A stretch of DNA of 64,000 nt from Sclerotinia nivalis (Eukaryota > Ascomycota > Leotiomycetes > Helotiales > Sclerotiniaceae), in NCBI GenBank assembly GCA_029531795.1, contig JAPEIS010000002.1, forward strand, positions 310,001 to 374,000. The letters are read 5' to 3'. Both the position numbers and the translations under genes were made by a program. The notes beneath the pieces are model-generated. The model saw only the letters and a program-made list of their open reading frames with translations, ran no database searches and was not told where the DNA came from. Below, piece by piece: positions 14,167 to 48,445 of the stretch. Each line of letters starts with the position of its first letter. Position 1 is the stretch's first letter.

Positions 14167-14974
14167 TTTGTTTTTGTTTGTTTTTGTTTGTTTTTGCTGT
14201 TTGTTTTTGTTGAGAGGGTGACGATATGAGATAAATGTATGGATTTTGAGCGAAGTTTGTTGAGGGGGTAGGAGGTGGTATCGATGGTTGAGATAGATTC
14301 ACCTGAGGATATTGAGGTGAAGTACCGGTCATTCACGAGATTCTATTCCGCACAGACAACCAGGTTCCCTGGACTATTATCATGAGAAGACTCATCTCGG
14401 CTTAAACCATCCCACCTGCACCACAATACCTCGACCCAGAAATACCCACTTGAACATTCTCCAAATCTGACATCAGCCCTCTAATAAAAACATAAAGTCT
14501 TTCTCTTAGTCAAATCACAAAAAACACAAAACTTCCATGTTATCAACCATACAACCAACCCCTTAACATCCAACCCCTTAAGCTTGTATTCATATTGATT
14601 TGGCCTTTAGCGAACCCGGAATAAATCATTGAAAGAATACTTTGATATCATGTTTGTATGTATATAACTTCTACTGACTGCTTGTTTAGGATTTTGATTC
14701 AGTTAATATACAGACTGGAGATTTTTCATATCTGTGAGGTAATTTGGATATAGGGAAAAAATACTTCGTTTTCTTTACTAATTTTTCTTATTTTTTTATT
14801 TTAATAACTCGCTTGAGTATGAGTATGAGTAAAGAAAATTTCTCCCTGTAGCTATACCGGACACTTGTACAAAGATTTAGCTCTGCATGGTAATCCCTAT
14901 ACACGAACACAGCACTCTGACCATTCCACCCCAAATAATCCTACTCCTCCTACCCCCTCCCCCCGCGGCTTCCT
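14167..14974. other. intergenic
   Basis: Begins with a TTTGTTTGTTTTTG microsatellite just after the stop codon (14168-14210), then AT-rich sequence with a GAGTAT repeat near 14815-14830. Frames open across 14865-15422 exist only because of the adjacent hexanucleotide repeat. No gene is supported. Confidence 0.45.
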
Positions 14975-15134
14975 CAGACCCAGACCCAGACCCAGACCCA
15001 GACCCAGACCCAGACCCAGACCCAGACCTAGACCTAGACCCAGACCTAGACCTAGACCTAGACTCAGACTCAGACTCAGACTCAGACTCAGACTCAGACT
15101 CAGACTCAGACTCAGACTCAGACTCAGACTCAGA
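14975..15134 (+). repeat. hexanucleotide satellite CAGACC to CAGACT
   Basis: 160 bases of 6-bp units that change in order from CAGACC, through mixed CAGACC/TAGACC, to CAGACT. Because the unit is a multiple of three, all frames stay open and would encode Asp-Pro then Asp-Ser, Arg-Pro then Arg-Leu, or Gln-Thr dipeptides. An ORF from 14865 to 15422 has a fairly protein-like acidic tail after the repeat (15170-15300), so an orphan gene cannot be excluded, but I see no splice or homology support. Confidence 0.8.
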
Positions 15135-16358
15135 AAACGAATATGGGGATCAAAATATGTCGCAATCTGCTCTACTCCTAACTACGCAGATTATAACAGC
15201 GATGAATCGGCGGACGATTATCCATATACGCTGGAAACATCATCGCTAGATGATCACCATCAAATGCTTAATGCGCGGATTATAGATTATTTTGATGTGT
15301 ATAAGAATGAAAATAATCAAAAATCCTCATCCCTATCAACCTCTAGTCTTATATTCCCATCAACCCCTCATTCTCACCTCTTTCACCTCTCATCCACCTC
15401 CCAAAACAAACTCACGCATTAAAAAATAATACAAAAGATTATAATACTCAATATATATATAGATATATATAGAAATATGCGAAAGAGGAGAAGAGAAGAG
15501 ATGTCATCAAACGATTAGTAAATGATGAAATTTAATGGGGTGTAGGGAGTGAGGAGTGAGGAGTGGGGAGTAAGGGGAGAGAGAAGAGGGAATGTTTAGT
15601 TGGATGGGAAGGTGATAGATTGGAGGTTGGAGGGGGGATGAGGGATGTGGAGGGTATGGGGGTGGAAGGAAGGGGGGGAGAGGTGTGGAGCGGGGATTTT
15701 GCGGGAATGGAAGGAGAGGATTTGAAAGGGAGGGAAGGGGGGGAGATGGAAATGGAGGGAGGTTGTGCAGGTGGAGGAGGTGGGGTTAGAGGGGGTTTTA
15801 CCGAGAGGAAGAGAAAAGAAGTGAGGTTGGTGGGGAGGTAGTAGTGGGATAGAATAGAATGCAGATAACAATATTTGATAGTAACAATAGACAGTTGACT
15901 AAACGCTAAATGTTTAACAATAAATCGGTTTCAAACCTTCAATAGACCATAATCCAATATCTTCAAATAAAAGAGATGGAAAGCTTCAATCACCGTCCAA
16001 AGAGAAATGTAATAATGTCATGATCATCGGATGATAGTATGTTCTACTTCGGATAAACCTTTTCTATAAAGTAATGTCTCTACATCAATCTAATTTCGTT
16101 TATCTACTTAGACTCGACGATACAACTTTCCGCCACTCCTCATTCAGACCGGAATCTCTCACTAAATAACCCCGCATTGCATGTTAAACATTCATTGCCA
16201 GTATTAACCACAAACTCGCATATCGAAAGCTACTGTCCCGCGCCAAATTGTTCCATTGTGGAAGAACATAATAGAAATATTTCAAACTTTCCTTCTATAT
16301 TTTCCAACCCAAACTCAAATAGTTCAACAGCGAGACTTTGAGTGATATCCCAGGAATC
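15135..16358. other. intergenic with purine-rich tract
   Basis: From about 15540 to 15845 the plus strand is almost free of C and dominated by G and A, with GGAGTGAGGAGTG-like units. The rest is AT-rich and holds the 3' flank of the TLC gene. Open frames in the purine tract are compositional. Confidence 0.45.
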
Positions 16359-22819: not shown

Positions 22820-25800
22820 ATAAAAAGATTATTATAGCTTTGTGGTGCTGTGATTGTTCATAATTTAGCTTTTGCTGATTTAGCATTCGTTTTAGCGATT
22901 CTTTTCAAGGAGGCGAGAGTACAGATAGGATCAGATGGGAATAGGAATACTGCTCCCTCTTTAGCTGCTTTATCCACTGCTTCGTTTCCGGGGATATCTA
23001 GGTGCCCAAGAACCCATCGAATTCGAATTGAACCAGGGCGAGTATATAGTAAGCAGGGCCTGAAAGGCCAAACTGTAATTAGTTCGCAGAATTCTTCAAA
23101 TATAGATTAAGAGGATCCAATGGAATGAAAACCTAATTGTATAGCAACCTTTAGGTTATCTAAGAAAACCTAGAGGTTTGTAACGAATCTAGTTGAGGGT
23201 AATTGTATTACTGTTTAAGTACCTTTCAAAACTGCAGTTATTTCGGTATCGAAGATTTCAGTATTACAACTTAATAAAAAAGCCTATCGATCCATTTACA
23301 GATTGTATTGATAAATCATTGATCCATTTTTTGTAGCACTATCCAAAACTTCGCTTTTCGAATTATTAAAGAAGACTTGTAAATCACTTTTTGGAATCGT
23401 AGATATAAACCTTTCGAAATCCTTAACTGTTCGTTCCTTCGAATAACCAAAAGGATCACCGATCCGGATTTCTATAATAATATACGATTCTTTGTTTTTT
23501 CAAAGGGAAAAAACAATTGGATTGATATATTCAGCTTTTGGAAGAGCTAGGATAATTCTTGAGAATCTTGATTCAGTAGTTCTAGCTCCAGTTTTGGCTA
23601 GGATATTTTTGGTTCGAATTCGAAGGGGATGTTTAGGATCTAGTCGAGCTGTTCGGATAGCGAAGTTCTGGGATATCAAATTTAGTTCAATCTTAGGAGG
23701 CATCAGATTTGATTCCTTATATAAAGCAGCAGTATTAATTGTACAGAATACAGAGAGGATTGTTCGAGTGCTAGCTAATACAATTTTATTCAAAAGCTTC
23801 AAATTATCACCGAGGCAACAGACAGGACAACAGGAATCACTTTTATTAATAAGACGTAGCTCGAAGAGCTACGTTTCTACAGAAGGAACGTTTCCTTTAA
23901 ATACATTTGTGTGTGCTAGGGCTCCGAGCCCTAGCGCTCTTACAGGGTACGATCACCGAGCGTGCCCCGCTCGGTGCTGGATCGGACAGGTGGAGCCTAC
24001 TAAAGGGGCCGGTCCAGTGGCCCGGCCCTGGCCCCGTGACACAAATGTTCATCTATTTGATTCGAGATTGTGAAGTTTAGGCCTCGTTTCTTAGTTCGGT
24101 CAGGCCATCAGGTTTCGGTTACAAAGTAGTATTTCTTCAGAATATAGATTGTAATCGTTCTTTGAAGCAAAATTGATAGGATACCTCAGATTATCCTTTC
24201 AAGCGAATATAATACATTCGCAATTGTGAGAGTTTTAGTTGAAAGGATCTGGATATGAAATTTAAAACTCAGTTTCCTATCAAAGTAAATCCTCAATTAT
24301 CTTAATAAGTCTGGTTTCTCCATTATTGAAAGATTTTCTGTATAGATAATAAGGCTTTCGATACCTTTCCTGGAATTTTTGAAAAAGTAAATCAATTCAG
24401 ACTTTATAGGATCAAAAATGATCCTTTTAGATTTGCTCCAATCCAAAGCTTTCAGCATTTCGGATTGTAATTAATCACAATTAGATTGTAAACTTGAAGA
24501 AAAAGCTACTAATACAATATCGTTTGTATATCCAAATCTTCGAATAGGATTGCCTAATCAAAACAAAGAGGCTATATAAAGCATAAAAAGGATAAGCGAA
24601 ATTGGAAAGTTTTATAACAAACTACATTCAATACTAATATTGGGCCCTGTTTCGCCATCAAGCCGAATACAAATTGTTCGATTTGTAGAGAACGATTGTA
24701 TCCATCGAACTAGGTTATCAAACCATCCTTGTTCCCTAAATCGGCGAACCAAACATCCTGGGAGAATAGTATTAAAAGCATTTTTGATATTTATAATTAA
24801 TAAGATAACTTTAGAATCTGAATTCAAAGCCATTTCCAAATCATATGTAAAACAAATTATAAGATCGACTAATGAACACAAAGGAAGCACTCCGAACTGT
24901 TGTTTGGCTAATACTTTGAGGATTATAACAATCCAAAACATCTTCTTTGCAATCAAACATTCGAGATTTTTTTCTAATACTGAAAGCAGGGCTATTGGTT
25001 TATAGGATCTAAGATTTGTACAATCTGATTTGTTCGGTTTCGGAACGATAGCTATAATCGCTAATCGGAAGCATTTAGGGTGATAACCTATTTCGAGGCA
25101 TTTTTGAAAGAATTATAAAATATATAATTCGATCAGTAACCATACTAATTGTAGGATCTTGGTAGGGATCTCGTCTATTCCTGAAGCTGTATTACCCATA
25201 TGAAGGATAGCAGTTTGAATATCCTGAATTGTAATAACAGGAAAGGCAATTGAACGAATGGAAGTTGAAAACGATTCAAATAGGATATCGTTAATTTCAA
25301 TTATATTAATCAGTAGATTATTGATGAATAGATCTCTTTTAGTTTGAATTATTGTAGTAAGAGAATGATTTAAAGGATTTATTAAAGGAGGAGTTCGATA
25401 TATTCTAATTAATTGATATTATTTTATTATTTTAAAGATATCTTTTATTTCCTTAATTGAATCAAACTTAGAAAACCAGAATTCCTTTTTCGTTTTTTTG
25501 ATAACTTTTCGAAGATTTTGTTTTGATTTTGAAAAGTTGTTCGTTCGGTTTTCTTGAACAGCTGTCCGGCAGGTCTCGTTCCATTATGGTTGATCTGTAT
25601 TTCGGCCGAATGATCTTTAAGCTGATCCTATATATACTGATTGTAGAGTTTGAGTGATATTTAAAGTTAATTTATCAAAATCTATGGTTGTATTCAAAGC
25701 TAGTAGATTTAGATTCAATAGATTCTTTATTAATAAAATAGAAAAGAGTTTTTTATTTAATATATTGATTCGGAGTCTTTGGATCGGATCCTAAAATCTT

Positions 25801-26290
25801 GTATTCTAATTCAAAGTTGTTAATAAGAATCAATAATTGGAAATTGTATTCAAATATAGTACAAAAGTTGTATTGACTGTATATGATCCTGAAAGAAAAA
25901 CTAGATCGAGAATGTTATCTAAATTGTAAGTAGGTTCATCAATTGTAGAAAGAAAATTGAAAGAATTTGTATCTAGTTAAATTGTAAAAGATTCTGTAGA
26001 ATTTGAATATAAAGAACAAAAGGAATTCTATTTCGAATAATAAAAATTTAGATCCTTTACAAGAAGTATAGAATTTAAAATATTCAAAAATAAATCAAAG
26101 AGAGTTTGTATTATTTGGTTTTCATTTGTATAACCTTTAGGAGTATTATAAATATTAATGATTGTAAGAATAGAATTAGTTAAAGATTGAATTTGTAAAA
26201 ATAATAAATTTCGAAAGGATACAGGCTGGAATTGATTAGCTCGAATATCTGTATTTTTTCGGGTATAAGACATTATACAAGATCAAGTTT
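22820..26290 (-). pseudogene. LINE ORF2 relic: endonuclease, reverse transcriptase, RNase H
   Basis: Coding remnant of the LINE polyprotein, read right to left. An endonuclease piece (26273-26028) contains ILTIINIYNTPKG and a degraded DLNF. The reverse transcriptase block (24956-24612) contains LAKQQFGVLP, INIKNAFNTI and LVRRFREQGW. A linker (24130-24050 and 23804-23500) contains WPDRTK and ISNQIDEHL, then KLLNKIVLAS on the other side of the solo LTR. The RNase H end near 23060-22860 contains IRWVLGHLDIPGNEAVDKAAKEGA-like sequence. Multiple stops, and Gln or Trp codons turned into TAA/TAG/TGA, make it non-functional. Confidence 0.8.
23805..24041. mobile_element. solo LTR inserted in LINE ORF2
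   Basis: A 237-bp segment with inverted ends TATCAC...GTGACA (ancestrally TGTCAC...GTGACA), flanked by the exact 5-bp duplication CAAAT (23800-23804 and 24042-24046). It interrupts the LINE frame exactly between the conserved EHL and KLLNK residues, so the empty site can be read. It is visibly GC-richer than the surrounding RIP-damaged DNA. Internally it folds into a series of perfect short hairpins: 23854-23874 (9 bp, GAA loop), 23883-23897, 23915-23935 (CCG loop), 23954-23976 (8 bp) and 24005-24035. Its source family differs from the full-length Gypsy nearby. Confidence 0.78.
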
Positions 26291-27585
26291 CCCAATTATC
26301 GAATGGTATGAAAGTTTTATAAACAGGATAGGATTTAGTAATTCAGTGTGAGATATCTGAGAATATATAAAATTCTTAAATTAGAATTATATTAATATAA
26401 GAATCATTGATTAAAGAAAATGCTAATTTGTATAAAGTAACATTTTTGGTTATATTAATTTGTAAAATAATCAATGGTTTAGAAGATAATCTAAGATTAT
26501 ATATTAAAAGGAATCGAAAAAAAAGAAACTTTTAATGTAATGAAACGATTAGAAAAATTAGAAGGGGGTGGTATCAATGAAGATAGTATTAAAGGAATTC
26601 GGATTGAAATTGAAGGAGTAATAGGTTTCTCTATAGGGGAATCGGCTTTTGGGGTTCGAAAGCATTTTGTATTAGCACAAGCTCTAGCCCTAGCTTCTTT
26701 TGAGGTTTTCTGGATAGCTTGTTTTTCCGATTTGCTTTTGGGGCCTTTGTTAGTAAGACGAAGGGGGCAATGTAGATCGTCTACAGGATAAAGGCCTCTA
26801 CAATGTAGGCACCTCGTTGGGCAAGTATGGGTTGTATTGTATCGGGTTGAATGATTCTTTTCTGTATGTTCGATTGTACTACAGATTCGGCATCTTTCTA
26901 AACGAGAGCAAACTCGAGTATTGTACTATTGAAAGTATCAAATACATTGGATTATCTTGGGTTTGAAGATGATTTGAGAAATATTAATTGTAATTCCTAG
27001 AATCCGAAGATTCTTGAGAAAGACTATATATTACAAAATTAGAAAACTCAAAAACCAAATAGAATTATATAATCCGGATTCTTTGCTTTGTATAGATTTA
27101 ATTACTTAGATCGTTTATTATCCTATATTATCGTTGATAGTGTCGAGTATAGTTTCCGATTCGATTAGGACGATGATCAATTATTATGAATTTCCTAAAG
27201 TTATAATAGTTCGTAGAATATAATTCAATCGATATATAATCTATAATTGTTGTCGTTCGATTTTGCAGATTTCGAATACTTTTTCGATTATATTTGAAAG
27301 GTTTTCTAAAACTGTTAAGTTCGCTAAAGAATTCGTATATAGTACAAACCCAGTATTTATTGTTTGAACTTCTTTTAGAAGTTTAGCATCGTTTTCTAAT
27401 TGTCCTTTCAATATACTAAGTATAGCAAAGGAACCAGTTTTTCGAATTGGATGGTCGAGTTTAATTCGAACAAAAAGGCGAGTATCAGTTTTGTATAAGA
27501 TTTGAGATTGAGTTTTGAATTGAGATCCGATTCGGTTCCCAGTTTTTGGATTTGTAGGTTGTATAATTAATAGTAAAAAAGTTGT

Positions 27586-27840
27586 TGTGACGATCCTGTT
27601 ATTCTATTATACCATAAATGCCTTAGGCCATTCTTTCGGCTTTTGGTCCCCTCCGAAGGGACCAAAATGCCTCAGGTTATTATTTCATTTATTTTACCCT
27701 GTATTCACTTAAAGCTTTGGTCTTCTCCGAGGGGATTATAAAAGGCTCAACTCTATTATATTTGGTATAATAATTTGTTATTCTTTAGTATAGATTAATT
27801 GATTCATTTTATTATATTTTGGATTAAGATTATCGTTATA
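27586..27840 (+). repeat. Gypsy 5' LTR
   Basis: 255 bp, collinear with 34748-35002. It contains a 10-bp-arm hairpin (TTTTGGTCCC at 27641-27650, GGGACCAAAA at 27658-27667), a second weaker hairpin near 27718-27734 and a TATA box at 27737-27744. The last bases read TA where the 3' copy has CA. Confidence 0.9.
27737..27744 (+). promoter_or_regulatory. TATA box in Gypsy 5' LTR
   Basis: TATAAAAG at LTR position 152; the 3' LTR has the same motif at the same offset (34899-34906). It sits directly after the second LTR hairpin. Confidence 0.6.
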
Positions 27841-28049
27841 TTATAATAAACTCATTAGTACTTTTGAGAAGGACAGAATATCCTTTGGGAAGGCTATAAT
27901 ATCCCCTAAGAAAGCCAGAATATCTAGCTAGTTATATTTATCGAGGTTATTGAACTAATGAAACTCTTTATATATATCCAACTAACCTTTTCGAATTTTC
28001 ATCGATATCATTGTTATATTTACCTGTTCGAGAAAACCCTGTATATCTT

Positions 28050-29314
28050 TACTTATTACTACTGAATCCGTTGCAACGGAATTACAAGCTCAAATCGAAC
28101 AAATTAGACAAAAGGAAGATCCTGGATTTGATACAAGAGTCGACGAAACAGTAGCTATAAGTCTGTTTTTGTATCTACCAATTCGAAAAGAATTAGTTCC
28201 TTTTGTAGCCGGAACAACAAATCTTCAAAGCCTATAAAAAGAAAACCACGAAATCCAAGTTCAAAATTAAGTTATATTAGAACAATTGGATCAGATTCAT
28301 TTCGCTTTAGTTAGTTTTTTACAAGAAAGATCTTTTGATATAAACGATAACAAACCTTCTTTTCGTTCTCGAATATAACAATAGCATTCTCGATAGATTG
28401 AAGATCCCGATATTGTTATATTTAACAAAAAAGGTCTTATAATAGAAAAAAGATCAATATCTATAGTATCTTTTTATAGAAGATTCAATACAAGAATGAA
28501 AGACTCTAAACCCCTTAGCAATAGAGTCAACCTTTCCTTCGAATCATAGAGATTCTTTGCAGAAGGAAAACTCTTGGATAATGCAGATCACTATCTGAAC
28601 AAGAGTACGAAAGTTCGCACTATTTTCCGATGGACTATTGGTGATGCATAATAGCATCTAAAGCTGAAAATGATTCGAAAGGAGTTTGCTATATACCAAA
28701 GCATTTTGGATTATCTTGGTTTTATTTACCTTGCATTTAATCGATAGGAATTGGTTATAAACGAATTTCGATTTCTACGAATGGGAATTATAACTTTCTA
28801 TCAATTTTATATGCAATTCTTAGAATTTGCAATAAAAGTCGATTAACTAGAAGATTTCTTTCGAAGAGAATTCATTTCGAAGCTTTTCTTCTTGTTGAAA
28901 GTTGTGATAATAGTTATTATGGATCTTTACCCCGATTTCCAGGGTTATATAAATCATTTAACGAATGTAAATACAAGGATGTATATTGTGAATCAGAAAT
29001 ATATTACAATGATTAGGAATCTTGGTCGAAAAGCTCCCTTGCTTGATAATTGCGCTAGGAGTTCTATCCCCTTGTATAACAATGCCAAATCAGAACGTAT
29101 GGAAAGGGAAAAATCGGCTACCCCTAGTTTCATACCGAATTTCAAGTCTCATTCTTTTGCCTCATCCTTTACTTGCTTCAAATGCAAAACCCTTAATTGG
29201 ATTAAGGATTATATTTGTCCCTTTAACATTCATAAAATTGATACAGCCTCCGAAGATAAAGAAACCCTTTCGGAATTTCCTGATTCCGATTTATATGAAT
29301 CGGGAAAGGATTAG
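28050..29314 (+). pseudogene. Gypsy gag relic
   Basis: Degraded capsid region of the Gypsy element. Coding-like fragments begin after about 28050 (ATELQAQIEQIRQKEDP-like). The longest open part, 28892-29314, ends with a damaged zinc knuckle reading CFKCKTLNWIKDYIC in place of the usual CCHC box. Stops are frequent. Confidence 0.6.
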
Positions 29315-29448
29315 TCCTTGGGAAAGTCTTCTCTTAAGGTTATCAATATGATCTCAAATATATTGATTTTCGGAGTTTTATAGGTAGCGATAGCTTTCTA
29401 TTTTTTTGTCATCTTTTAGTTTATGGTTTCTAAATCCGGTTTTCTGTA

Positions 29449-32400
29449 TTGATGGATACTGGTGCGTTTGCTTATTTGTTTATTAACACTCGTTTTGTAT
29501 ATCAATTTTCTCGATGTACTAGCATCCCTATCACTCCTTTGAACAATCCTATCCCTGTTCAAGGATACGATGGTCGGCAAGATGTTGCTGTTATTCATTC
29601 TATCCGTTTAATATTCCGATTGGACGGTAAAACTTTCCTTCAAGTCTTTTTTTTATTAATTGATATAAAAAGGGATATCATTATTGGAGATTTATGATTC
29701 AAAGTTTATAATGTAATATCTAGATTTTTCAATTATCAATTAATATAATCAAAGGATTTATTATTAATCCTATGCTTTTCAAGGAATATAATCATCTCTA
29801 GAAAATCTCTTTCAGCCCCCAAGCTATTATTTAACCCCGAATTTGAAAAAGATATACGACGATGTGATATTTTTTTCGAAATCGATTATTTAGAATTTTC
29901 TCTTTCTTTAGTTAGATTCACCATTAAGTACGAATGGGATTTACGTACTAGCCTTCAACAAATAGAAAAGGAATTCCAGGAAAGCTCATTTGTCGAACGA
30001 AATTTGCTTCTCTCCGCAGGGATCAAAACTAAGAATTTGCTTTCTTCCGTAAAAACCAAATCAATTAATTGCTTTGCATTTTTAAATGAATTGTTTTCCG
30101 AATATTATCAATTAATCTATCTTTTATAAATCGTTGTTAATATTATTGTGATTTTTGTTGAAGTTTTCAAAATGTATAATCGTTATTGTAATAACACCAT
30201 CTTTTCCACTAGCATTTATGAAATCAATACAGTGTTAGAAAATCGAATACGGAATTCGAATGACGAAGAGCTTCAGGAACTGATCCAAAGAATCCCCCAG
30301 GCTTACTATAAATACCTTGAAATCTTCTTCAAAAAGGAATCAAATAAATTGCTACAATATACCGTATACGATCATAAAATCGAAATTCCCTTCGATATAC
30401 AATTCAGGACTAGCCCGATATACAATATATCTTCGAAAGAATTACTAATTGTAAAAGAATATCTAATAGACAATCTAAATTTTTTTTTTATCAAAGTTAG
30501 CTTCTCTTCCTTTGTTACATTTGTACTCTTCGTTTCCAAGCCAAATAATAGCTTATATTTCTGTATCGATTTTCGATGCTTTAATATGCTTATCAAAAGA
30601 AATAAATACCCTCTGCCCTTAATCGACAAAACACTAGTACACATATCGAAATCGAAAATTTTTACGAAGCTGGATATCCGGCAAACATTCCATCGAATTC
30701 GTATACACCCTGATTCCGAAGATTTAACCATATTCCGAATCCGATACAGAATTTATAAATGTAAAGTTTTACTTTTCGGATTAATTAATGGTTTTATTAT
30801 TTATCAGCGTTATATAAACGATGTTCTTTTTGATCTTTTGGATATAATGTATACAGCTTACCTAAATGATATTCTGATTTACTTTGAAAACGAATCAGAG
30901 TACGAATTGTATATATTACAAATCCTTGATTGTCTCCGAAAAGTTAATTTATAGACCGATATCAATAAATATGAATTCAGTATTAAAAGGACTAAATACT
31001 TTGGTTTTATTATCTCTACAGAAGGAGTGGAGATCGATCTATAGAAAATCGAAGTCATAAAAGAATAGAAAGTCCCTATAAATATTAGAGGAGTATAATC
31101 CTTTCTAGGGTTTTGTAACTTTTATAGACGTTTTATACAAGATTTCGGACGAATCGCTCGTCCTTTGATCAATCTGATCAAAAAGGAAACTCTCTTTATA
31201 TGGGACAACGTTTATACCACTGTTTTCAACCGCTTTAAATAGACTATGCTCCAGACCCCTGTATTGAAGCATTACCAATTATATCTTCAGATTATGATTG
31301 AAATAGATACTTCAGACGATGTTATCAGCAAAATGCTCTCTCAGCTATACAACGACAATCAATAATATCCTATCGCTTTCTTTACCAAAACTATACTTCC
31401 GGCCAAAATGAATTATACCATATTCGATAAAGAAATACTTGCTGTTATCAAGGCCTTTAAAACCTGAAAAGCAGAACTTATAGGTTCTCCTTATTATATT
31501 AAAGTCGTTATCGATTATAAAGCTTTGAAATACTTTATAACCAAGAAAACCTTGAATCAATGACAAACAGAGTGATCTGAAACTTTAGCAAACTTTTGAT
31601 TCGAAATATCATATCGATCGGGAATCAATAATATTGTAGCAGATACCCTTAACTACTATGATCAAGAAATAGAAACATAGGAAACAGTATGTTCTGAATA
31701 TCACATTCAAATTTTACTTCCACCAAAAATTCTTGACAAAAGTATATTGGACGAATTCAGTATGAAGAGAGGAGAGATAACTGCGATCCTAACTATTGAA
31801 ACAAAAGAACTTAACCTTGTAGATCGTATTCTACAAACCAACCGTATATATCCTTTTGTACAACCAGAACGCGATTTGGCTGTTAAACTGAAAAAAGGAT
31901 ATTTCATGTGTAATGGTTTATTACTCCATAAAGACCGATTAGTTGTGCCCGATGTAGATAATCTCTATACTAATCTTATAAAGAAAGCCTATATCCAAAT
32001 CTCTTCAGTTTATCCTGATAAAACCAAAACGAAATTGATCATAAAAAAGCGGTATTTTTGGAAAGGAATAACTGATTATATCGACCAGTATATCGATAAT
32101 TATACCATTTGCCACAATTATCATATCCCGAAAGATCGAACGCCTGGTTTTTTGTATCCTTTGTCTATTCCTGTCCGACCATAGACAGATGTATCAATAG
32201 ACTTTAAATCATTTCCGAAGGATAAGTACAAATACGATAACGTTTTTATAGTTATCGATAAACTATCAAAGCAATCAATATGTATCCCTTGCTATTACAC
32301 TACAATTACCCGGAAAATAGCTTTACTATATCTAAACCACATCTACCATTGAAAAAGCATCCCAACTATTATTACATTTGATAAAAATCCGCAATTCATT

Positions 32401-33420
32401 TCCAACTTCTGGAACGAATTCATATGAATCCTAGGCGTCAAATTAAAACTGTCCACAACCTACCATCCTCAAACAAATGAACAAACCGAAATTATAAATC
32501 AATATCTGAATCAACGATTCCAATCCTATATCAATTATTATCAAAACAATTGATCGGAACTTTTGTGTATGATAGATTATATACAATTCATTATACTCTA
32601 CGAAAGTTTAAGAATATCCTTTTTCGAATTTCAAAACGGATATTCTTCAATTACTTCTTTCGATTGGAATAGACCCTCTTCCAACACCCCTTATACAGTT
32701 ACAGAAAAGTTGAACTACACTAACATACAGACTTTCTCCAAACATATATATAAGACTTGGAAAATAGCTAAAGATATCCTTTCTAAAGTTCAACAAAAGA
32801 AAATAAAGGATATCGATCGCTATCAACAATTTGTCGACTTCCAAGTAGAAGACGAAGTATATATAACTACTAAAAACTTCATTACAGAAAAACCTAACCG
32901 CAAACTCGATCTGCAGATAACCGGATTATACCATATACTCGAAAAAGTCGGCCATTCGTATCGATTGAACCTTCCTGAAAGTATACAAATCCATAAAATC
33001 TTTTCCCCCGATAAACTACAAAAAGCTACAGGAAACCTAATTCCCGGACAACGTATCGAACCTCCTCCATCTATTATAGTAACAGCAAATACGGAATTCG
33101 AAATGCAACAGATCCTAGCATCGAAACTCCTCCACAGATAGATCCGATACAAGGTAAAATGGATAGGATACGATGATGACTCTATATAATATTATTGTTC
33201 CGATGTTATATATGCTCCGCATAAGATACGGAAGTTCCATATTCAATATTCTAAAACTGTAGGACCTCCTAATCATCTTTTTGAATGAATAAGAGTTTGG
33301 GAAAATAGTAACGACGACTACAACGAATTCGCAGATGGTAAACCTATGAATAGAATCACAAAACAGAATTATTTGTCTACTCTCCCTCCCTTCGAAATAA
33401 AAATTGCATCTAAATTATAA
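29449..33420 (+). pseudogene. Gypsy pol relic: protease, RT, RNase H, integrase, chromodomain
   Basis: The protease piece 29449-29697 keeps the catalytic MDTGA. The reverse transcriptase (30148-30954) keeps FTKLDIRQTFHRIRI and LFGLINGF, but the active-site box reads AYLNDILIY, losing a catalytic Asp. RNase H (about 31180-31670) keeps DKEILAVIKAF. Integrase (31747-33140) keeps the zinc-finger H/C pattern (ICHNYHIPKD), DFKSF, FDKNPQF and the TEIINQ Glu. Its Trp codons before TDVSIDF and SELL have become stops. The C-terminus (33090-33270) has a chromodomain-like IRYKVKWIGYDDDS, which in related elements directs insertion to heterochromatin. Confidence 0.85.
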
Positions 33421-33599
33421 TTCACTTCAAAAAATCATTTGTTATTGTTTTTGCTTTTTCTGTTGTTTATTTGCTTACTTTGATTTTTACCTTATTTTTT
33501 CTCTTTTCTTACTATTATTCTATTCAACATACAATAACTATATTTCCATCAAACCGATTCAACTCATTGAAAAATATCTTTTTCATTATAAATTTTCTA

Positions 33600-34715
33600 G
33601 GAAGTCTATTCAGTTCGCTTCGAAGAGCTGCTGCGGTTTCGTTCTCAAACAATCCCGCCGACGATCGCTCCTCTCCTTCCGCCTCTTCCTCTTCGAGGCT
33701 TGCTACACTTCCTCTTGTGGTGGAAAATGATGGCCGCTCTTCTTCTGAGCGAGATAAGAGCTCCCAAATAATCGCATCTCCGAATGGCGAAGAAATACAT
33801 TTCTTCAATATCATCGATTTTATCGAAAATCACCTAGATATGCCTATCGTCGATGTAGTACAAATGGTCGATATGGCTAAAACACAAGCTGTACAAATTA
33901 ACATTGGTCTCGAAGATTTTGTTTATCGCCTCAACGTATTCGAAAGAATAAGACAATTTTATAAACAGTTGAATATGACGAAGGAGGATACGAACGAAAA
34001 GTATACGAAATTCGTCGAAATGGCCGATAGAGGTAAACATGCGAGGCTCGATATCGAACTCTCGCAGAAAAGACTAACTATCTACATTTAAGGCAAAATA
34101 TTAGCTTTAAAGCTATTTATTAAGGCTTATCCAAAATGACAAACGAATGCTACTCTCGCATCCAAACTCGTTCACATCGTAATCACAGCGACCAGCGGTA
34201 TTAATGTATACCGAGCTCTGAATACTGTTATCATCGAGCGTTTTCAGCAATACGATCACGAAGATAAGAGCAATAGAAATCGAATTCCGGAATCCGCTAC
34301 GATTAACATGAAGCATACACAGACATTCGTTAATTCCAAAAATGATATCCTTTACCCCTTCTATACCCTTTCCTTTATGAAAAATAAAGGACTTACCATA
34401 CTACCTTATAACCTTCTCGGAAAATACAAAGAAAAAGAAATTGATACTACATCAGATCGATTCGACAATGAACCTCTTCGTTATTGCGATATTACTACAT
34501 TGAATATAGTATTCGATATACCGAATCATACACATAAAACCAGACAATCCGCGAAAACCCCTTCAACTCCGATAAAAAAGGCCTTCGCAAAACCTATCGA
34601 AATCGAAACCGACGACGACGATTCTATCCCTAATATACCACAAAAGAAAAGAAAAGCTGTATTGGTAAAACAAAAATCTGTTTCGTCGATACGAAAAGTT
34701 AGGAGGAAGGTTTAA
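33600..34715 (+). pseudogene. extra ORF between integrase and 3' LTR of Gypsy element
   Basis: A sense-strand frame follows pol and runs to 34715, just before the polypurine tract. It is interrupted only by TAA at 34089-34091 and TGA at about 34137, in the same frame. The encoded protein has a Ser/Asp-rich start, a helical middle (FFNIIDFIENHLDMPIVDV, NVFERIRQFYKQLNMTKED) and a basic C-terminus (KKRKAVLVKQKS, IRKVRRKV) like a nuclear localisation signal. I recognise no family. It is much less damaged than pol, and the 33630-33760 stretch is GC-richer than its surroundings. Envelope, regulatory or captured host function are all possible. Confidence 0.55.
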
Positions 34716-34747
34716 GGGCAAGTCTGTTTTCTTTAAAGAAGGGGTGA

Positions 34748-35002
34748 TATAACGATTCTGTTATTCTATTATACCATAAATACCTTAGACTATTCTTTCA
34801 GTTTTTGGTCCCCTCCGAAAGGACCAAAATGCCTCAGGTTATTATTTCATTTATTTCACCCTGTATTCGCTTAGGGCTTTGGTCCCCTCCGAGGGGACTA
34901 TAAAAGGCTCAACTCTATTGTATTTGGTACGGTAGTTTGTTATTCTCTAATATAGATTAATTGATTCATTCTATCATGCCTTGAATTAAGATCATCGTCA
35001 CA
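34748..35002 (+). repeat. Gypsy 3' LTR
   Basis: 255 bp matching 27586-27840 in order and length. It preserves the terminal GTCACA; its first bases are TATAAC instead of TGTGAC. It carries a GTCCCCT-CCG-AGGGGAC hairpin near 34882-34898 and a TATA box at 34899-34906. Followed by the target duplication GTTGT. Confidence 0.9.
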
Positions 35003-35560
35003 GTTGTAGTCTTTTGAGTATAAATAGAATCCTTAAGATATTGGATTGTAGAAAAGCCTTTTATAAATTTAACAATTTCAAATGCAAATACTGATTAAAA
35101 GGTTTGTATATCAGAGCTAAAGAGATTAACAGAAGTTTTAATAGAAGATTTGATAAATCGAAAAGAATGAAATCCATTAATAAATATATCGAAATACTTA
35201 TTTACTGTAAAAGAGATATCAATATATAACACAATCAAAAATTTTCGAAATCGAACAAAAAGAACTCAAACTACTTCGGTATTGAGATAATCGTTTTATA
35301 ACAAAACGATAAAACTAAAAATCTATTGATCTTCATTTGCTCTATTAATAACAATATTAATTGTATTAATAAAGGCTTGGGAAAGAAAAGAAATCGAAGG
35401 AGTGGAAGGCATGATAGTGGAAACGCATCCATACAGCGCCTGCCGGGGCTGAAAAGTTTCGTTTTTAAATCCTATAGATGATAAGAATGATCGATTGATC
35501 AATAAAACGCAATAATAAACGCGTTTTTCGAAAAATTCAATTCTTCGAAAATGTTTAATG

Positions 35561-35573
35561 TGATTTCGCCCTT
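35561..35573. repeat. LINE target-site duplication, right copy
   Basis: Exact copy of the 13-bp sequence at 22024-22036. Marks the 5' end of the LINE on the minus strand. Confidence 0.8.
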
Positions 35574-38500
35574 AAGTGAGAGATACGCGACGCGAAACGG
35601 AACGTCAACATGTGACCAACAATACGGTGACCATTTCCCCCCTTAAATTATGAAAAAACCAGAATTCCGCGCTCGAAAAATCATCCCGCTACAGGATCAA
35701 CAAAGCAGCAAAATAAAGAGAAATAAACTCATTATTACTCGATTTAGTTTAGATTCATGAGATAATTGAATATATTCATGAGACATGCAACAAAACTTTG
35801 AGAAGGGAGCTAAGGAAACTAGGGATGCGAGAGGGTAAATTGAAGGAGTGGAGGAAAGGAGGTGGATTTTGGTGAATTGTAGTCTGTCTCATTTTTTACT
35901 GCGGGTGGTGATTTGGTTTGAGTTGGGTTGATGGTTGGGCAAGTTGCTGCTAATTAACATGGTGGTTAAAAGACTTGGGTCGATGATTTGAAGCGTTGCT
36001 GTTAATTAACATATGAGTTATGGTGCGAGTGTATCGTTGAGGGGTAGGGACTTTGTCCTGTACATTATATCTGCCATTTGTCGACAAAGATGGTGAGACT
36101 TACATCGTGCAAGTTTCGAAATTGTTCTGGTACTTTGTAGCGTTTAAGTATACGCGTCTTCCAAACTCAATGCACCCTTGTATCAGGGGCCGGTAAATTG
36201 GCTTTACTCCTTTTCCAAATGCTACCTGATACAGCATTCTTCCGCCATTAGAAGCCACAAGAACGTTCAACTGTTACTTTAGGTGATAGACGATGCTCAT
36301 ACTGTGATCACCAACTAGAGATCATGAGCCCAGAATAAGATGCCAGGAGTCCATCTGGGTTGTGGATACACTAGACAAATTATCGAATTTGAGGGGCAAA
36401 ATCCAGCTGTCTATTGCAAGGAGAAAAGCATCGGAAGTGTCGAGGTAAAGCCCGGCCCATTTGTTTCTACAAATGGATTGTCTAAAACGTTCTCGGTATA
36501 TTGTGCTTTTCTCATACTGATTTGCTTTTTGAGTTCTGCTTCAACAATGTATCGGGATGAAGTTCGAATTTTTCTTCACCACGTTAATATCTATGCTTGC
36601 TCCCATATCAACGGAATTTCAGACCATAGCTACGCTACCACATAGCGTTTCAGCCTCTAGATAGTCGTCCATCAACAAACTACCTCTAAGGTGAATGGAA
36701 AATCTCAATCAACCACTGACGAGGTGGGCTCTTTTTTGTGGGCCTGGGGAAGGTTGGAGACGAGGTAGGTTCAAAATTCGCTACAGATGCAACCATAGGA
36801 ATTTCTGGGATATCTGTATAAACACAAGATGCTTGAATCTCTAGCGGATATTGACCTGGCAAGACTTTGGCTTTGCAAGTTCTTAGGATCTCTTCCGTTG
36901 CAACATACCTCATCGTTTGTGGTTCACACATCTCTATTCTTAGCTTGCGATCACACACCATTATAAAGTAATGCCATGAAAATTACCATCCCTGTCATTG
37001 TCTTTTTATTTTTTTGGTGTTGCTTACAACAATGGATCCTTCTATCTTATTGTCACAAGAACTTGTATCTATGTAGTAAAGCAAATTAGCAATTCTGATT
37101 TTTGACGAGCACGCAATGTTGAAATTGGAACGTAAAGCAGCTTATCCGGTACTTGTCTTGTGAGTCCTTCAACTTCTCTAGCCAGATTATTTGACCATTG
37201 TGAGGATCTTTGGTTGATTCTGAATCAGGTTTATATAGTGTCTGAAAGAGTTTGGTTAGGAATGATGTGTAATAATCACTCGCAATACCTTCATCGCTCT
37301 CAATACCTTACCCTACGCAGTTTATTTGTACTCGCTCCTATATATAAGCACTATCCTCATACTTCCTCTTCCTGTGACCCGTCTAGACAATCTTTCGATG
37401 GCGGGATTCTAGGTTTGTGGTGGAGATTGTAACTATCTGACCGCGCGAACGTTTTTTTGACTTAAATGGCAGTGGAGTTCATGTGTATCTGATGCGATAA
37501 GAGTTCAGTAATCTGATACCTTCACGTTGTCAATAATTGAGCTGCTATCAGTCTGCTCTTTTTAATACCATTAGTCAATATCATTATCTTCATATTTCCT
37601 CGCAGTTACTGTTGCGCGTGACTGCTATTATTGTTGTTGGAAAGTTTCAGATTGCTGACACTGATTATTGTTGCTTAATATCTCCATCGGCCGAGAGAGA
37701 AGTACCATACCTATCAATTCATTTAAATCTCCCTGTCCCCACTCCAAGTACTAAGAAACCGCGGTATTGGAGTTTGTGTATAGAACTGCGTGCAAAAGCA
37801 AGAGCAATACTTGGTGGGTCGCGAATATTTGCAATCATCTTGTTGCGAAGCCGGTAAAGTTTGATAATGTTTGGTGAAAATGTAATGGATGTCAGTTATG
37901 AAGTGATTAAAAAGAGAATTATGTTATCAACTATGAGGAACTGGACTTTCTTTGTAACTATCACAAACAAACTCCACCTATATTCATTAGTTCAGCCTCG
38001 CAGACCATATATTGTTTGTGTGACTGACATTGTCTTGCTCTATCATCTTCCAAAATTTATTCTGCGAAGCATTCCCTCAAAGCCACCACTCCGGAAAACG
38101 TTTTCTTGAATTTGTTTAAAACTTCTATAAAAAGAGTTTTTGTCTTTTATAAAATATCTTCGATCATTTAGCTAGATGTATCCTGCATTAACAGTAATCA
38201 CCTAATCTTCAGATCCCGCTTCTTTAAGATTCTACTCAATCCAAGCATTCGCTCCTTATTCTACGGGAAGGACTCGGACATTGACCTCTCATAATTCCTC
38301 ACTGCTTGGACTTTGACCCTTATTGTCCCAATCCAACAGCGAGATTCAATTGCATTAGTTTGTCATTCGAAGATAAGATTGTTTTCCGTAGGCTGGATGA
38401 AGTGTTCAAATCTTCAGGTTTCGTGATTCTGAAGTGCGACATTCACTATTCCTTTTCGGCTGCTTCCTATATTTGCGCTTTCACTCCACCAGGCTAATAA

Positions 38501-42838: not shown

Positions 42839-45800
42839 CTAAAAACCATCAAAGACTAAGAGGCTTTGAATATTGGCTTTGCCAAAACCCTGCTGCCGCA
42901 ACATTTCCCGACCACGATGAACAGGGAATTCAGCAACGACCATAATTCTGATATCCTTAACACAAACGCCAGCTTTAACCAACAATTGTAGCACCGCGCA
43001 AAGTGTCCTTCCCGTCGCGAGCACGTCGTCCACTATTACCACTGAATTACCTCCGCGGACCAGGTCCCGATCGATCTCAAACCTCTTCTCTTTTGACTCA
43101 TGGAATTCCGTCGAGGAGATATGTGATGGGGATTTCGGGACCGAAATGGTAGGTGGGGGAAGTTTGCCAGACTCACGAGTCAGAACCAATGGTATACCAA
43201 GCACCATCGCCAAAGGTGATGCAAATACATACCCGCCGGTCTCGCAACAAATCAACTTATCGATCTTAGCCCATTCACCATTGAAATGATTCTGTAGGAG
43301 AGTGGTGACTAGGGCCAGTCCACCCGCCTGTTGAGAGATGTCAAGCACATGACGGAAGACTATCCCAGGGCGTGGAGAATCCGGTACCGCACGTACCATA
43401 CTAGCTAGTCGCATCAGGTCCTCGTGGAGGAGTGGAAGGAGATACTGCTTGGCAAATGCTTTCGCCGCCTCGTTTCCATCTTTTTCATTGTCGAAGATGA
43501 GACTAGGGCGATAGTGTAGTGTTTTTGAGTTTAATTCACTCTTGCTGCATGCGTCTTTACTTTCATTATTATCGTTACCGCCGGAATGATGCCCTTTGCG
43601 AGTCGACCGCACCATTTGGCCAGCTTTGATCCGAACATCAAGAAGCCTTCTGTCTGGTACGAGATGCCAGAATGTCGCTACCGGTGCCTCGTCTCTCATT
43701 CCAGTGATTAGCAACACGTCAACATCGACAAAATCATGAACGATATTCTGAAAGTGTTCCATCGGTAGCTGAGGCCGTTGTGCCACCTGATCGTGATAAA
43801 ACACCGTCAACGCTTGACGGTGTTTCTCCTTGTAGGAACGATCGGAAAGAAGCCTATTTAGGTCAGCTCCGGTAGCTGTCGCATATTCTCGCTTGGTAAC
43901 ATCGCTAATACTTGCTGAACATGCTGTGAATGTTCTATGAGGGTATGTAGTTATTTCTGAGACAAAAATATCGGCGCAATAATCCTTACCGGCTGCGCTA
44001 TCACCCGTGACAAGAATGATGAGTTTTTGTTTCACCGGTGGTGGTTCTAGGAGCGGACAGGCGTACGCTATCACATTATATGGATCCAAAGTACACTTCA
44101 GTCGGGCTAGACGTGGCAGATTTGGCCCAAAAGCTTTAGCTGCTAGTGCTTTGTCCCTAGGGTCTGGCCCAAGGTCGGCGCCGTACACTCCACTACAAAA
44201 GGGCAACAAGTTTCTCGCAACATTATAAACCCACTGTACAGCAGTTTGAGCAGTTTCGGTTCCATTCTGGTCGCGGGGCCACACGCCAGTTATAACACAG
44301 GCAAAATCCCAATCGCGACAGCCGAAAGCCGTGGCTTCTGTGGCTATATTACGTACCGCTCCATCACCTTGCAGTAGATGGAAATAACAGAGTTGTGAAG
44401 GGCGAGCCTGGATTGCCGCTAGCAAAATATCCGCGATGTGCACCTCTGCAATGTTCTTCAAGAATAAGCATCGTTTGAAGGAGGAGGTTTTGCCACAACC
44501 GTGTCCGCCGTGCATCTCAGACATGTACATTTCGGTCTCGAACAAACCGACACCGTCCACTATTTTATGTTTGTTCTCTAAACCCAAGATGTTGATTGCG
44601 GATTTGGGCGCCTCAGATGCTAGTATGGATGTGGAAGCTTCAAACAAGGTCACTCCAAGATGCAGCTGGTCGAAGTCCCAATAGAGATATGCGTCTATGG
44701 ACCAGTTCTGAGGAAGATGCTTGGCAATGGAGTTGACATCGGATAGTTTGTTCCGCGCCGAAGTTTCGGACCTCATTGGGAATACCCAGTTTCGGACAGA
44801 ATAGGTCGGAGCTGGGTAAGCCTTGAAAGTAACGCTTATCACAATACCGAAGTTAGTGCCAGCTCCTCTTATTGCCCATAACAAATTAGTTTCGTCTTTG
44901 GTGCGCACTGCTCCAGCTGGCACATATTCGGTTGGTACTTGTCCGACATAAATAACTTGAGCAGAGTCAACGCTGACAAGCACAGCACCTACGATACTGT
45001 CGCATGCGAGCCCGCGAAGCCTAGTTAGGTGCCCAATGCCGCCTTGTAACCACAAACCAGCACCTACACTTGGGCGGGACCCCAGAGGCACTGCCAAACC
45101 CGACGGTGTGATCTTGCGGACAATATCTTCAGTCTTACACCCGGCCTCAGCTACGACCAAATATTTAGATTTGGAGTAAGTATCAGTTTTGCCTATATCG
45201 TCACTGGACGTTGCAATGTGTACTTGGTTAAACGCTTCCATGTCGACAGAAAGGACGTTGGGCCACATACAATGACCACTGTGGCCCCCACCGATAACAG
45301 TAAGTCCAAACTTATGCTCCAAAGCCCATTGGACAAGATGTTGGACGTGTTGTACCGTTGTTGGTTTGAAGACATCAGCCGGCTGGTGCAAGCGAGCTTC
45401 CCAGTTTTTGACTTTTCTCTTCGTTCTCACCTGTCCCAACTCTGAGTTTTGATTGGGTAAATCGATCGCACGTCTATTGAACGACACCATACGTTGAGGT
45501 GCGCTGAACGAGAGGTAACTTGGGCGCGTTTCTTCATTGCAAGTTGAGGCGCGACATATTTTAATCCACTCGCCTCGAACAGCCTCGTCTGACTCCACAT
45601 CTTGCTTGACGTAACCCGCGATGAAAGGAACAAAACTATTCAGTATTCCGTCGTCATTTTCCACAGTAACAGTCGCAGTAGGGAAAATTGCTGTGTGCTC
45701 GCAAGCCAATCCCTCAAGATCGAGAGCTTCGTCGCGGTGAAAAATCACTACTTTTCCATCTTCTGGACCTTGAACAAGTAGATCTAGCGCACGCCGTACG

Positions 45801-46318
45801 AATTCATGTTTGGGATTCATGCCATACATGCTGTGACAGAAAAGAACAACGTCGAACCTCCCCTCATCATCAGTCTGTGTGCCATCCCTTGGCTCAGTGT
45901 CAAGAGCAAAAGGGGCCCGATAGATGTTAGGTGGCCGTTCCAAAAGAGGCAGCGCGGACTCCAATTTTGATGAAGAGGAAAGCCAATCTTCCAATCTTGT
46001 AGCTGACAATAGATTAGGCTCAAATGCAGTGTATCTTCTAATCTTACGTCTTAGATGAATGGGCAGATAACCAAGTATGCTTTTAGAACCAGGTCCGATT
46101 TCAAGTACCGAAACATTGGGGCGCGATTTCAATAGAGAGGTCAGAAGCTGATTGAGTTGTGGAATGATGAAGTCTTGGTATGACGTCCATCCTGAGCCAT
46201 GCATCAATATGTCGAAACCGGCATTGTACTGCGTATCGGATAGCGGTTGATTTAAGGACGACGTGTTTGCCGTGTCCCACTCCTCGAGGGCCTGCTTCAA
46301 GTAGTCGAAACTGGCCAT
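42839..46318 (-). CDS. four-domain fusion: methyltransferase, BBE oxidoreductase, P-loop kinase, phosphoribosyltransferase
   Basis: Single uninterrupted frame of 1159 residues. (1) About 1-260: class I SAM-dependent methyltransferase, motif I VLEIGPGS at 71-78. (2) About 310-760: berberine-bridge/PCMH-type FAD oxidoreductase. GGGHS at 343-347 supplies the His for covalent FAD. The second site reads LWLQGGIGH, without the Cys of bicovalent enzymes. The end has the typical LDPYNVIAYACPL. (3) About 764-960: P-loop domain, TGDSAAGKD at 771-779, with the layout of animal-type phosphomevalonate kinase (REYA..TGADLNRLL, SYKE). (4) About 982-1159: adenine-phosphoribosyltransferase-like, with ETGGYVFASPLA, ESGKLPPPTIS and the PRPP loop VVIVDDVLATGRTL at 1093-1106. 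The key residues look intact, so all four domains could be active. Same strand as the GTP cyclohydrolase gene upstream. Substrate unknown. Confidence 0.88.
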   Translation of the reverse strand: MASFDYLKQALEEWDTANTSSLNQPLSDTQYNAGFDILMHGSGWTSYQDFIIPQLNQLLTSLLKSRPNVSVLEIGPGSKSILGYLPIHLRRKIRRYTAFEPNLLSATRLEDWLSSSSKLESALPLLERPPNIYRAPFALDTEPRDGTQTDDEGRFDVVLFCHSMYGMNPKHEFVRRALDLLVQGPEDGKVVIFHRDEALDLEGLACEHTAIFPTATVTVENDDGILNSFVPFIAGYVKQDVESDEAVRGEWIKICRASTCNEETRPSYLSFSAPQRMVSFNRRAIDLPNQNSELGQVRTKRKVKNWEARLHQPADVFKPTTVQHVQHLVQWALEHKFGLTVIGGGHSGHCMWPNVLSVDMEAFNQVHIATSSDDIGKTDTYSKSKYLVVAEAGCKTEDIVRKITPSGLAVPLGSRPSVGAGLWLQGGIGHLTRLRGLACDSIVGAVLVSVDSAQVIYVGQVPTEYVPAGAVRTKDETNLLWAIRGAGTNFGIVISVTFKAYPAPTYSVRNWVFPMRSETSARNKLSDVNSIAKHLPQNWSIDAYLYWDFDQLHLGVTLFEASTSILASEAPKSAINILGLENKHKIVDGVGLFETEMYMSEMHGGHGCGKTSSFKRCLFLKNIAEVHIADILLAAIQARPSQLCYFHLLQGDGAVRNIATEATAFGCRDWDFACVITGVWPRDQNGTETAQTAVQWVYNVARNLLPFCSGVYGADLGPDPRDKALAAKAFGPNLPRLARLKCTLDPYNVIAYACPLLEPPPVKQKLIILVTGDSAAGKDYCADIFVSEITTYPHRTFTACSASISDVTKREYATATGADLNRLLSDRSYKEKHRQALTVFYHDQVAQRPQLPMEHFQNIVHDFVDVDVLLITGMRDEAPVATFWHLVPDRRLLDVRIKAGQMVRSTRKGHHSGGNDNNESKDACSKSELNSKTLHYRPSLIFDNEKDGNEAAKAFAKQYLLPLLHEDLMRLASMVRAVPDSPRPGIVFRHVLDISQQAGGLALVTTLLQNHFNGEWAKIDKLICCETGGYVFASPLAMVLGIPLVLTRESGKLPPPTISVPKSPSHISSTEFHESKEKRFEIDRDLVRGGNSVVIVDDVLATGRTLCAVLQLLVKAGVCVKDIRIMVVAEFPVHRGREMLRQQGFGKANIQSLLVFDGF

Positions 46319-47300: not shown

Positions 47301-48445
47301 CTAGCCCCTCCGTCTCATACCGAGTAGAGCATGAAAGTTTCTCTGTTCATTCATGTCATCTTTCAACAGGCCACTCATGCATTTAGTCCATGTCAAGGGC
47401 CCCGTCTTCTCTACACCTCTCATCATCATGCACATGTGTCTGCACTCCAGAATCACAGCAACTCCTAGCGGATCTAACACCTCCTCTATCGCGTCTGCAA
47501 TCTGCTTCGTTAACCGTTCCTGCACTTGTAATCTGCGTGCGAAGATTTCAACAATGCGCAGTAGTTTCGACAATCCGATAACCCGACCGTTGGGAATGTA
47601 TCCAATGTGTACCTTGATTTTTTATGTTAGTCTATGAATGAATGGCAAACAAAAATATGAGGAAAACACATTTCTGGAATGGATCTAGTAGATGGTGCAT
47701 AGTGGATGTACGGATTCATGATCCGAATTCAAAGTTGAATATAAATGTTTCCCAAGACTTGTTTGTACACTCCAAACAAATGGAATCATCCAATACATAT
47801 CGCATAGGAGAATAAAATTGGAGCAGAAAAAAATTGAGGGTTAGACTAATCCTGCATGAAATTCATGGAGAGTTTCACGATCCATGCACCCAGAAGTGAA
47901 TCAATACACGGCGCGTTCAAAGGAGCAAAACCTACCTTTCCAAAAAACGGTAACATGTGATGCTCACACAAGCTAGAAACATCAATGTCACTTACAATGA
48001 CGACATCCTTCGTATCGACATTGAAAATGGCACCGTTAACCACATCTTCCACCCTGCCTTTATATCCTTTGGTAAGGTCTAGGAGTGCTTTGGCGTAGCG
48101 GCTAGGTGTCTTTTGAAGGCCTTCACGGTCTGGATTCTCGCCGACCTGCAACAGGAGTGTTTTTACTGTGGCTGCTATCTCACTTTGGGTAGATGAGGGG
48201 AATGGGTCGTCTACAATCTGGCTAGAGTGTGATTGTACGACGAGAGTTTCGTCTGAGGTATTAGCTGAACGTTTTAGATTAGCCACAAAGTTGTGAAGAG
48301 AATGGAAGACATGCTTACGTTTCTCGATGGTATCATGATCAATCGTTTCTTGAACAGTGATCTTCTTCAACAAAGCTAAAAATTCGATCTCGTTCTTGCT
48401 GGGAAGACTCGGGGCTTCATTTGCGGAACCAGAGTTGGTAGACAT
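47301..48445 (-). CDS. GTP cyclohydrolase I
   Basis: Converts GTP to 7,8-dihydroneopterin triphosphate, the entry step for folate, biopterin and, in bacteria, 7-deazapurines. Exons 48445-47936 and 47612-47301 join in phase 0 across a 323-nt intron (GTAGGT donor, CAAG acceptor), giving 273 residues. The zinc ligands and active-site motifs are present: [14 protein letters not shown], then after the junction [31 protein letters not shown] and [11 protein letters not shown]. In exon 1 a possible 54-nt in-frame intron (48265-48318, GTAAGC to TTCAG) would remove 18 residues of the variable N-terminal arm. The N-terminal extension is normal for fungi. The location next to the fusion gene suggests a specialised paralog; whether a second housekeeping copy exists cannot be seen here. 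Confidence 0.9.

Follow-up and report, generated by a model that had tools for sequence, protein, structure and literature searches.

A widespread four-module enzyme fusion in Pezizomycotina, examined from its locus in Sclerotinia nivalis

Judged on its sequence, one gene of Sclerotinia nivalis is a genuine member of a predicted four-enzyme fusion family of Pezizomycotina, in which a methyltransferase, a flavin oxidase, a kinase and a phosphoribosyltransferase module are joined in a single polypeptide (Table 1). It lies in a stretch of 64,000 nucleotides of contig JAPEIS010000002.1 (positions 310,001 to 374,000; hereafter the window) and occurs as one full-length copy in the 50.3-Mb genome of 31 contigs. 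An earlier sequence-only reading of the window had proposed four enzyme modules in one polypeptide, and domain search of the 1159-codon frame bore this out. It had also named no known example of the four-part combination; the combination as such is not new, being common in public ascomycete sequences. The fusion is thus already present in databases, and no published description of it was found in the open-licence literature searched (titles and abstract starts). The notion that it is unique to S. nivalis was rejected, as homologues occur in many other fungi.

Table 1 Features of the fusion gene and of the neighbouring GTP cyclohydrolase I gene (GCH2) in the window
Feature	Position in window	Strand	Basis
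Four-module fusion ORF, single exon, 1159 aa	42839..46318	minus	1159-codon frame and homologues
Module 1, residues 1-290, putative class I SAM methyltransferase, histamine-N-methyltransferase-like fold	45449..46318	minus	
Module 2, about residues 300-757, putative BBE/VAO-type FAD oxidase	44048..45421	minus	FAD_binding_4, PDB profile matches, residues
Module 3, about residues 762-925, putative phosphomevalonate-kinase-like P-loop kinase	43544..44035	minus	PF04275, residues
Module 4, about residues 965-1159, putative APRT-like type I phosphoribosyltransferase, non-APRT hood	42842..43426	minus	PF00156, APRT structures, residues
GCH2 exon 1	47936..48445	minus	splice sites inferred from sequence and homologues
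GCH2 exon 2	47301..47612	minus	splice sites inferred from sequence and homologues

The family and the integrity of the fusion

Homologues were taken as the best 120 of 1075 and the best 120 of 1084 matches (E <= 0.001), together 140 different proteins, from a search that admits only proteins 0.55-1.75 times the query length. These listed homologues come from Sclerotiniaceae, other Leotiomycetes, Xylaria and its kin, Trichoderma, Gaeumannomyces and Aspergillus, and also from Dothideomycetes, lichens, Geoglossum and Orbilia. All but one exceed 1080 aa (139/140), and for 11 of the 140 the contig is 3.8-4.6 kb long; because only 352-1236 bp are left there outside the coding sequence, any introns in these 11 genes are correspondingly bounded. 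The near-full-length homologues, those on short contigs among them, support the earlier view that the frame is a single gene, as does the initial methionine, M1, which is invariant in 49 aligned rows. The sole short protein in the list, P0019 of S. sclerotiorum (902 aa), misses its N-terminus and some of the transferase in the public model, and is either a mis-model or a decaying gene.

That an assembly or annotation artefact has joined separate genes might be suspected from the oddity of the combination and from the incomplete S. sclerotiorum model, but near-full-length homologues recur across many assemblies, and we regard such an artefact, or read-through of separate genes, as so improbable on the homologue evidence that it was rejected. 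The modules might instead have been joined for co-expression or assembly while serving unrelated reactions, and no shared substrate has been demonstrated; however, the fusion is whole in 139 of the 140 listed homologues and no split version was seen among them, within the 0.55-1.75 length range of the search, which makes this reading distinctly improbable.

Versions of the fusion outside fungi were sought by scanning contigs with two peptide patterns (WLQGGIGH and DLGPDPRD). The prokaryotic scan returned one Spirochaete locus, matching the APRT part alone, and the viral contig scan returned no match; with two patterns, both are weak negatives.

Conserved motifs of the four modules

Residue counts given as x of 140 refer to an alignment of 140 sequences, made up of the window's protein and 139 homologues, with ten Sclerotiniaceae rows among them. 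The motif residues are near-invariant across this alignment and are kept also in the fast-diverging Sclerotiniaceae, so the suggestion that the motifs were intact, and the frame no decaying accident, stands. Mean pairwise identity is of the same order for each of the four modules, all of which are conserved. Phosphoribosyltransferase, kinase and FAD domains were detected in every one of the 34 full-length homologues scanned; in these and the window's own piece (35 rows), Methyltransf_23 reached E 0.001 in 10 and the BBE C-terminal model reached E <= 0.001 in 5. An AlphaFold model of the full-length protein (pLDDT 62.9, pTM 0.38) was too poor to show domain contacts.

Module 1 carries a motif I of the form LEIGPG, E100 and the segment FCHSMYGM, and E73, G75, G77 and E100 are present in all 140 aligned sequences. 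Its fold resembles that of histamine N-methyltransferase, and small-molecule N-methyltransferases top the fold-match list; searching with the methyltransferase sequence as query yielded chance and repeat matches only. Module 2 matches FAD_binding_4 (E 5.9e-13, 49.1 bits against a cut-off of 26.4) and keeps the histidine of GGGHS (H346), the position for a putative covalent FAD, in 139 of 140 sequences. The C-terminal BBE domain of Pfam stays below its cut-off (15.8 versus 20.6 bits), leaving a tail that is BBE-like. In BBE enzymes a second covalent link to FAD is made through the cysteine of G-x-C-P-T-V-G; the segment of module 2 matched to it by eye reads G-S/A-R-P-S-V-G, with R415 in 139/140.

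The kinase domain PF04275 is found in module 3 (E 1.7e-19, 70.3 bits versus a cut-off of 33.8), and the fusion is its only match found in the S. nivalis genome. The equivalog model of animal phosphomevalonate kinase, TIGR01223, is not reached (34.3 against 188.15 bits). K778, D779, K809, R834 and R875 are each present in 140/140 sequences.

Module 4 matches PF00156 (E 1.4e-21), with structures of adenine phosphoribosyltransferase (APRT) among its matches. Its PRPP loop, VVIVDDVLATGRT, conforms to the pattern VVVVDDxxATGxT, and D1098, G1103 and T1105 are found in all 140 sequences, D1097 in 139 and T1102 in 136. We take the arginine of D/E-x-RGF and the flexible Glu-Tyr-Gly hood to be functional features of APRT. 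Where human APRT aligns with its DSRGF arginine, all 140 sequences have glycine (G1028), and in place of the hood (human YSLEYG) stands K-x-x-S-[HYN]-x-S-S. This segment, too, is conserved (S1065 and S1068 in 140/140, K1062 in 137/140, S1069 in 136/140), R1048 and K1052 are invariant in the alignment, and R989, in the base-side FR, is kept in 117/140. APRT equivalog cut-offs are not reached, the best score being 97.8 bits against 125, and TIGR01090 giving 84.9 against 185.85. An ordinary, separate APRT that keeps DARGF and KEYG is present on another contig (C17) of the genome, so the fusion transferase is not needed for adenine salvage, and the idea that the fusion replaces a missing ordinary APRT was rejected. 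Module 4 appears to be built like an APRT but, by its residues, should not be filed as one, and the absence of the two APRT features argues against a plain APRT step.

Because those two features are missing, the transferase may be non-catalytic, and the altered site points to a regulatory function or else to a new specificity for the base. The regulatory reading would make module 4 a PRPP sensor gating the other three enzymes, comparable to the PRT domain of the Bacillus subtilis PurR repressor, which binds PRPP without catalysis. It accounts for a kept PRPP loop beside the glycine and the absent hood, and PurR is among the profile matches (1p4a, 1o57). Against it, PurR scores far below the APRTs, R1048 and K1052 never vary, and the replaced hood is conserved as expected of a working site; we consider a sensor unlikely.

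A neighbouring GTP cyclohydrolase I and the gene tree

GCH2 lies upstream of the fusion on the same strand, 982 bp from the fusion ATG, and contains one intron of 323 nt (GT..AG). GTP cyclohydrolase I is the entry enzyme of pterin biosynthesis. The protein matches PF01227 (E 1e-70, 237.3 bits versus a cut-off of 27) and has the CEHH and HMCM motifs, which we take to be the zinc motifs of GTP cyclohydrolase I. It is 100% identical over 235 columns to an S. nivalis protein (P0122) whose gene model is without some stretches, and 52-56% identical to the genome's other GTP cyclohydrolase I copy (contig C1, 8080969-8081588). In a tree of 26 proteins, from which the C1 copy was left out, GCH2 clusters with its counterparts from other Sclerotiniaceae and from Astrocystis and Annulohypoxylon, and is separated from other fungal GCH1 (support 100/99).

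The position of GCH2 was surveyed in eight other Sclerotiniaceae species among the listed matches (P0121, P0123-P0129), each list ending at 120 entries. In Stromatinia cepivora the locus tags of fusion and GCH2 are consecutive (EAF04_006573 and 006574), and in Botrytis galanthina they are neighbouring (BGAL_0364g00050 and g00040). In S. trifoliorum the two genes are listed from a contig of equal length, and in Monilinia they are 38 tags apart, again on a contig of equal length. For B. cinerea they are listed from different assemblies; B. convoluta, B. deweyae and B. byssoidea have GCH2 and no fusion among the matches listed, and Ciborinia, B. elliptica, B. fragariae and B. narcissicola have the fusion and no GCH2 among them. 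A duplicated GCH1 is linked to the fusion in some Sclerotiniaceae, namely the window, Stromatinia and B. galanthina, and is not shown to be adjacent in most species. The B. cinerea GTP cyclohydrolase named in PMC6557632 is Bcin02g03810, not the GCH2 match BCIN_03g00960.

A coding-score scan of open stretches of at least 40 codons, which short-exon genes would escape, found no further cluster genes by the fusion and GCH2 at 36-42.8, 46.3-47.3 and 48.4-55 kb. Elsewhere in the window, about 36 kb from the fusion, are a Zn2Cys6 regulator-like frame (5555-6856, minus) and an MFS/TRI12 transporter-like frame (7748-8464, plus). Low-complexity frames with Arg-Pro, Asp-Pro and Asp-Ser repeats occupy 14829-15422. 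An AT-rich block at 24000-36000 (GC 0.29-0.35) contains reverse-transcriptase-like open frames at 24615-25112 (minus) and 30130-30951 (plus), and dinucleotide ratios of the RIP type are unremarkable across the whole window, this block included. The segment 52000-64000 has a GC skew of -0.40 to +0.54 and pyrimidine-rich frames.

In a comparison of 42 chosen fusion rows, identity is 63% between Botrytis and the Sclerotinia clade, and 57-63% between either of them and the other groups. Those other groups (non-Sclerotiniaceae Leotiomycetes, Dothideomycetes, Sordariomycetes, Eurotiomycetes, Lecanoromycetes and Geoglossum/Orbilia) show 76-82% identity between and 76-84% within groups. As no more than a rough control, its within-class pairs being close relatives, ordinary GCH1 from seven ascomycetes was put through the same calculation and showed 86-94% identity inside a class and 66-75% from one class to another.

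In a fusion tree of 55 rows, the ten Sclerotiniaceae form one side of a branch (support 100), and outside this family the tree mixes classes, the class having been looked up for seven species. Constraint of groups, which were defined once an initial tree was available, was rejected for ten Lecanoromycetes (p 2.6e-78), seven non-Sclerotiniaceae Leotiomycetes (p 1.9e-78), two Hyaloscypha (p 0.012) and Lasallia with Umbilicaria (p 0.018). The simplest reading of the mixing at 76-82% identity is horizontal transfer of the fusion gene between fungal classes, though it may instead reflect old paralogy through duplication with loss. Counting against transfer, two Xylographa rows held together were not rejected (p 0.376), and Aspergillus, Gaeumannomyces, Lachnellula, Monosporascus and Xylaria each group as expected. 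Some lichen rows are metagenome assemblies, and the homologue lists favour sequences near the query.

Proposed function and comparison with known enzymes

We favour, at a probability of roughly 40%, a role of the four-enzyme polypeptide in a specialised metabolism of nucleotides or bases. The C-terminal transferase would bind PRPP and add phosphoribose to a base, probably not plain adenine, and the adjoining kinase would then phosphorylate the phosphorylated product of the transferase. A comparable pairing is known from salvage enzymes, some of which join a uridine kinase to a uracil phosphoribosyltransferase. Oxidation and methylation of the ring, whether ahead of ribosylation or following it, would fall to the flavin oxidase and the histamine-N-methyltransferase-like domain. 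The earlier reading had likewise suggested that the four parts could work one after another on a single base. The GCH2 beside the fusion offers a concrete chemical clue: in some Sclerotiniaceae it may feed a GTP-derived, pterin-type precursor into the pathway of the fusion or into a linked one.

The same domains could instead serve to break down or salvage modified nucleobases of plant or microbial origin, such as N-methylated purines or cytokinin-like bases, with oxidase and methyltransferase altering side groups and the C-terminal half turning the base back into a nucleotide. Fungi of soil, of lichens and associated with plants occur widely among the listed matches, as this would lead one to expect; however, a methyltransferase is unexpected in a demethylating route, and the adjacent GCH2 of Sclerotiniaceae is left unexplained. 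We hold such a role, as a whole and in this division of labour, to be possible though doubtful.

A more specific version of the favoured biosynthetic reading is an enzyme assembly line on one polypeptide that makes a modified nucleotide and has been passed horizontally between classes, its PRPP transferase having a new base specificity, and that in some Sclerotiniaceae forms a minimal two-gene cluster with a dedicated GTP cyclohydrolase I for a pterin- or deazapurine-type nucleoside. This full combination is speculative and quite unlikely to hold in every part. A protein of about 1160 residues that keeps the motifs of four modules in a large part of a fungal subphylum points to an undescribed series of reactions, which expressing one gene could reveal, and horizontal gain of the fusion gene would parallel how fungi acquire useful accessory pathways.

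As a whole, the fusion matches public fungal records of the same family in module order and length, at 56-90% identity; these carry names such as 'phosphoribosyl transferase domain protein', 'FAD-binding PCMH-type domain-containing protein' and 'adenine phosphoribosyltransferase', the listings giving names and no function. Taken singly, each module resembles a known enzyme and departs from it. Module 1 has the fold of histamine N-methyltransferase at 11% identity, and a shared fold does not imply a shared substrate. Module 2 has the FAD domain, the GGGHS histidine and domain-long profile matches in common with berberine-bridge-enzyme-like flavoenzymes, 6-hydroxy-D-nicotine oxidase and EncM, but falls under the cut-off of the BBE model and has its own C-terminal substrate part. 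Module 3 shares with animal-type phosphomevalonate kinase the domain match, the P-loop GKD and residues aligning with what we take to be K48 and R73 of that enzyme, whereas single-sequence comparison with solved phosphomevalonate kinases gives E values of only 0.04-0.09 and its P-loop is without their KRK. Module 4 has the fold, a PGIxFR-like segment and the PRPP loop in common with human, yeast and bacterial APRT, and differs from them in the glycine that stands for the DSRGF arginine and in the hood that replaces YSLEYG.
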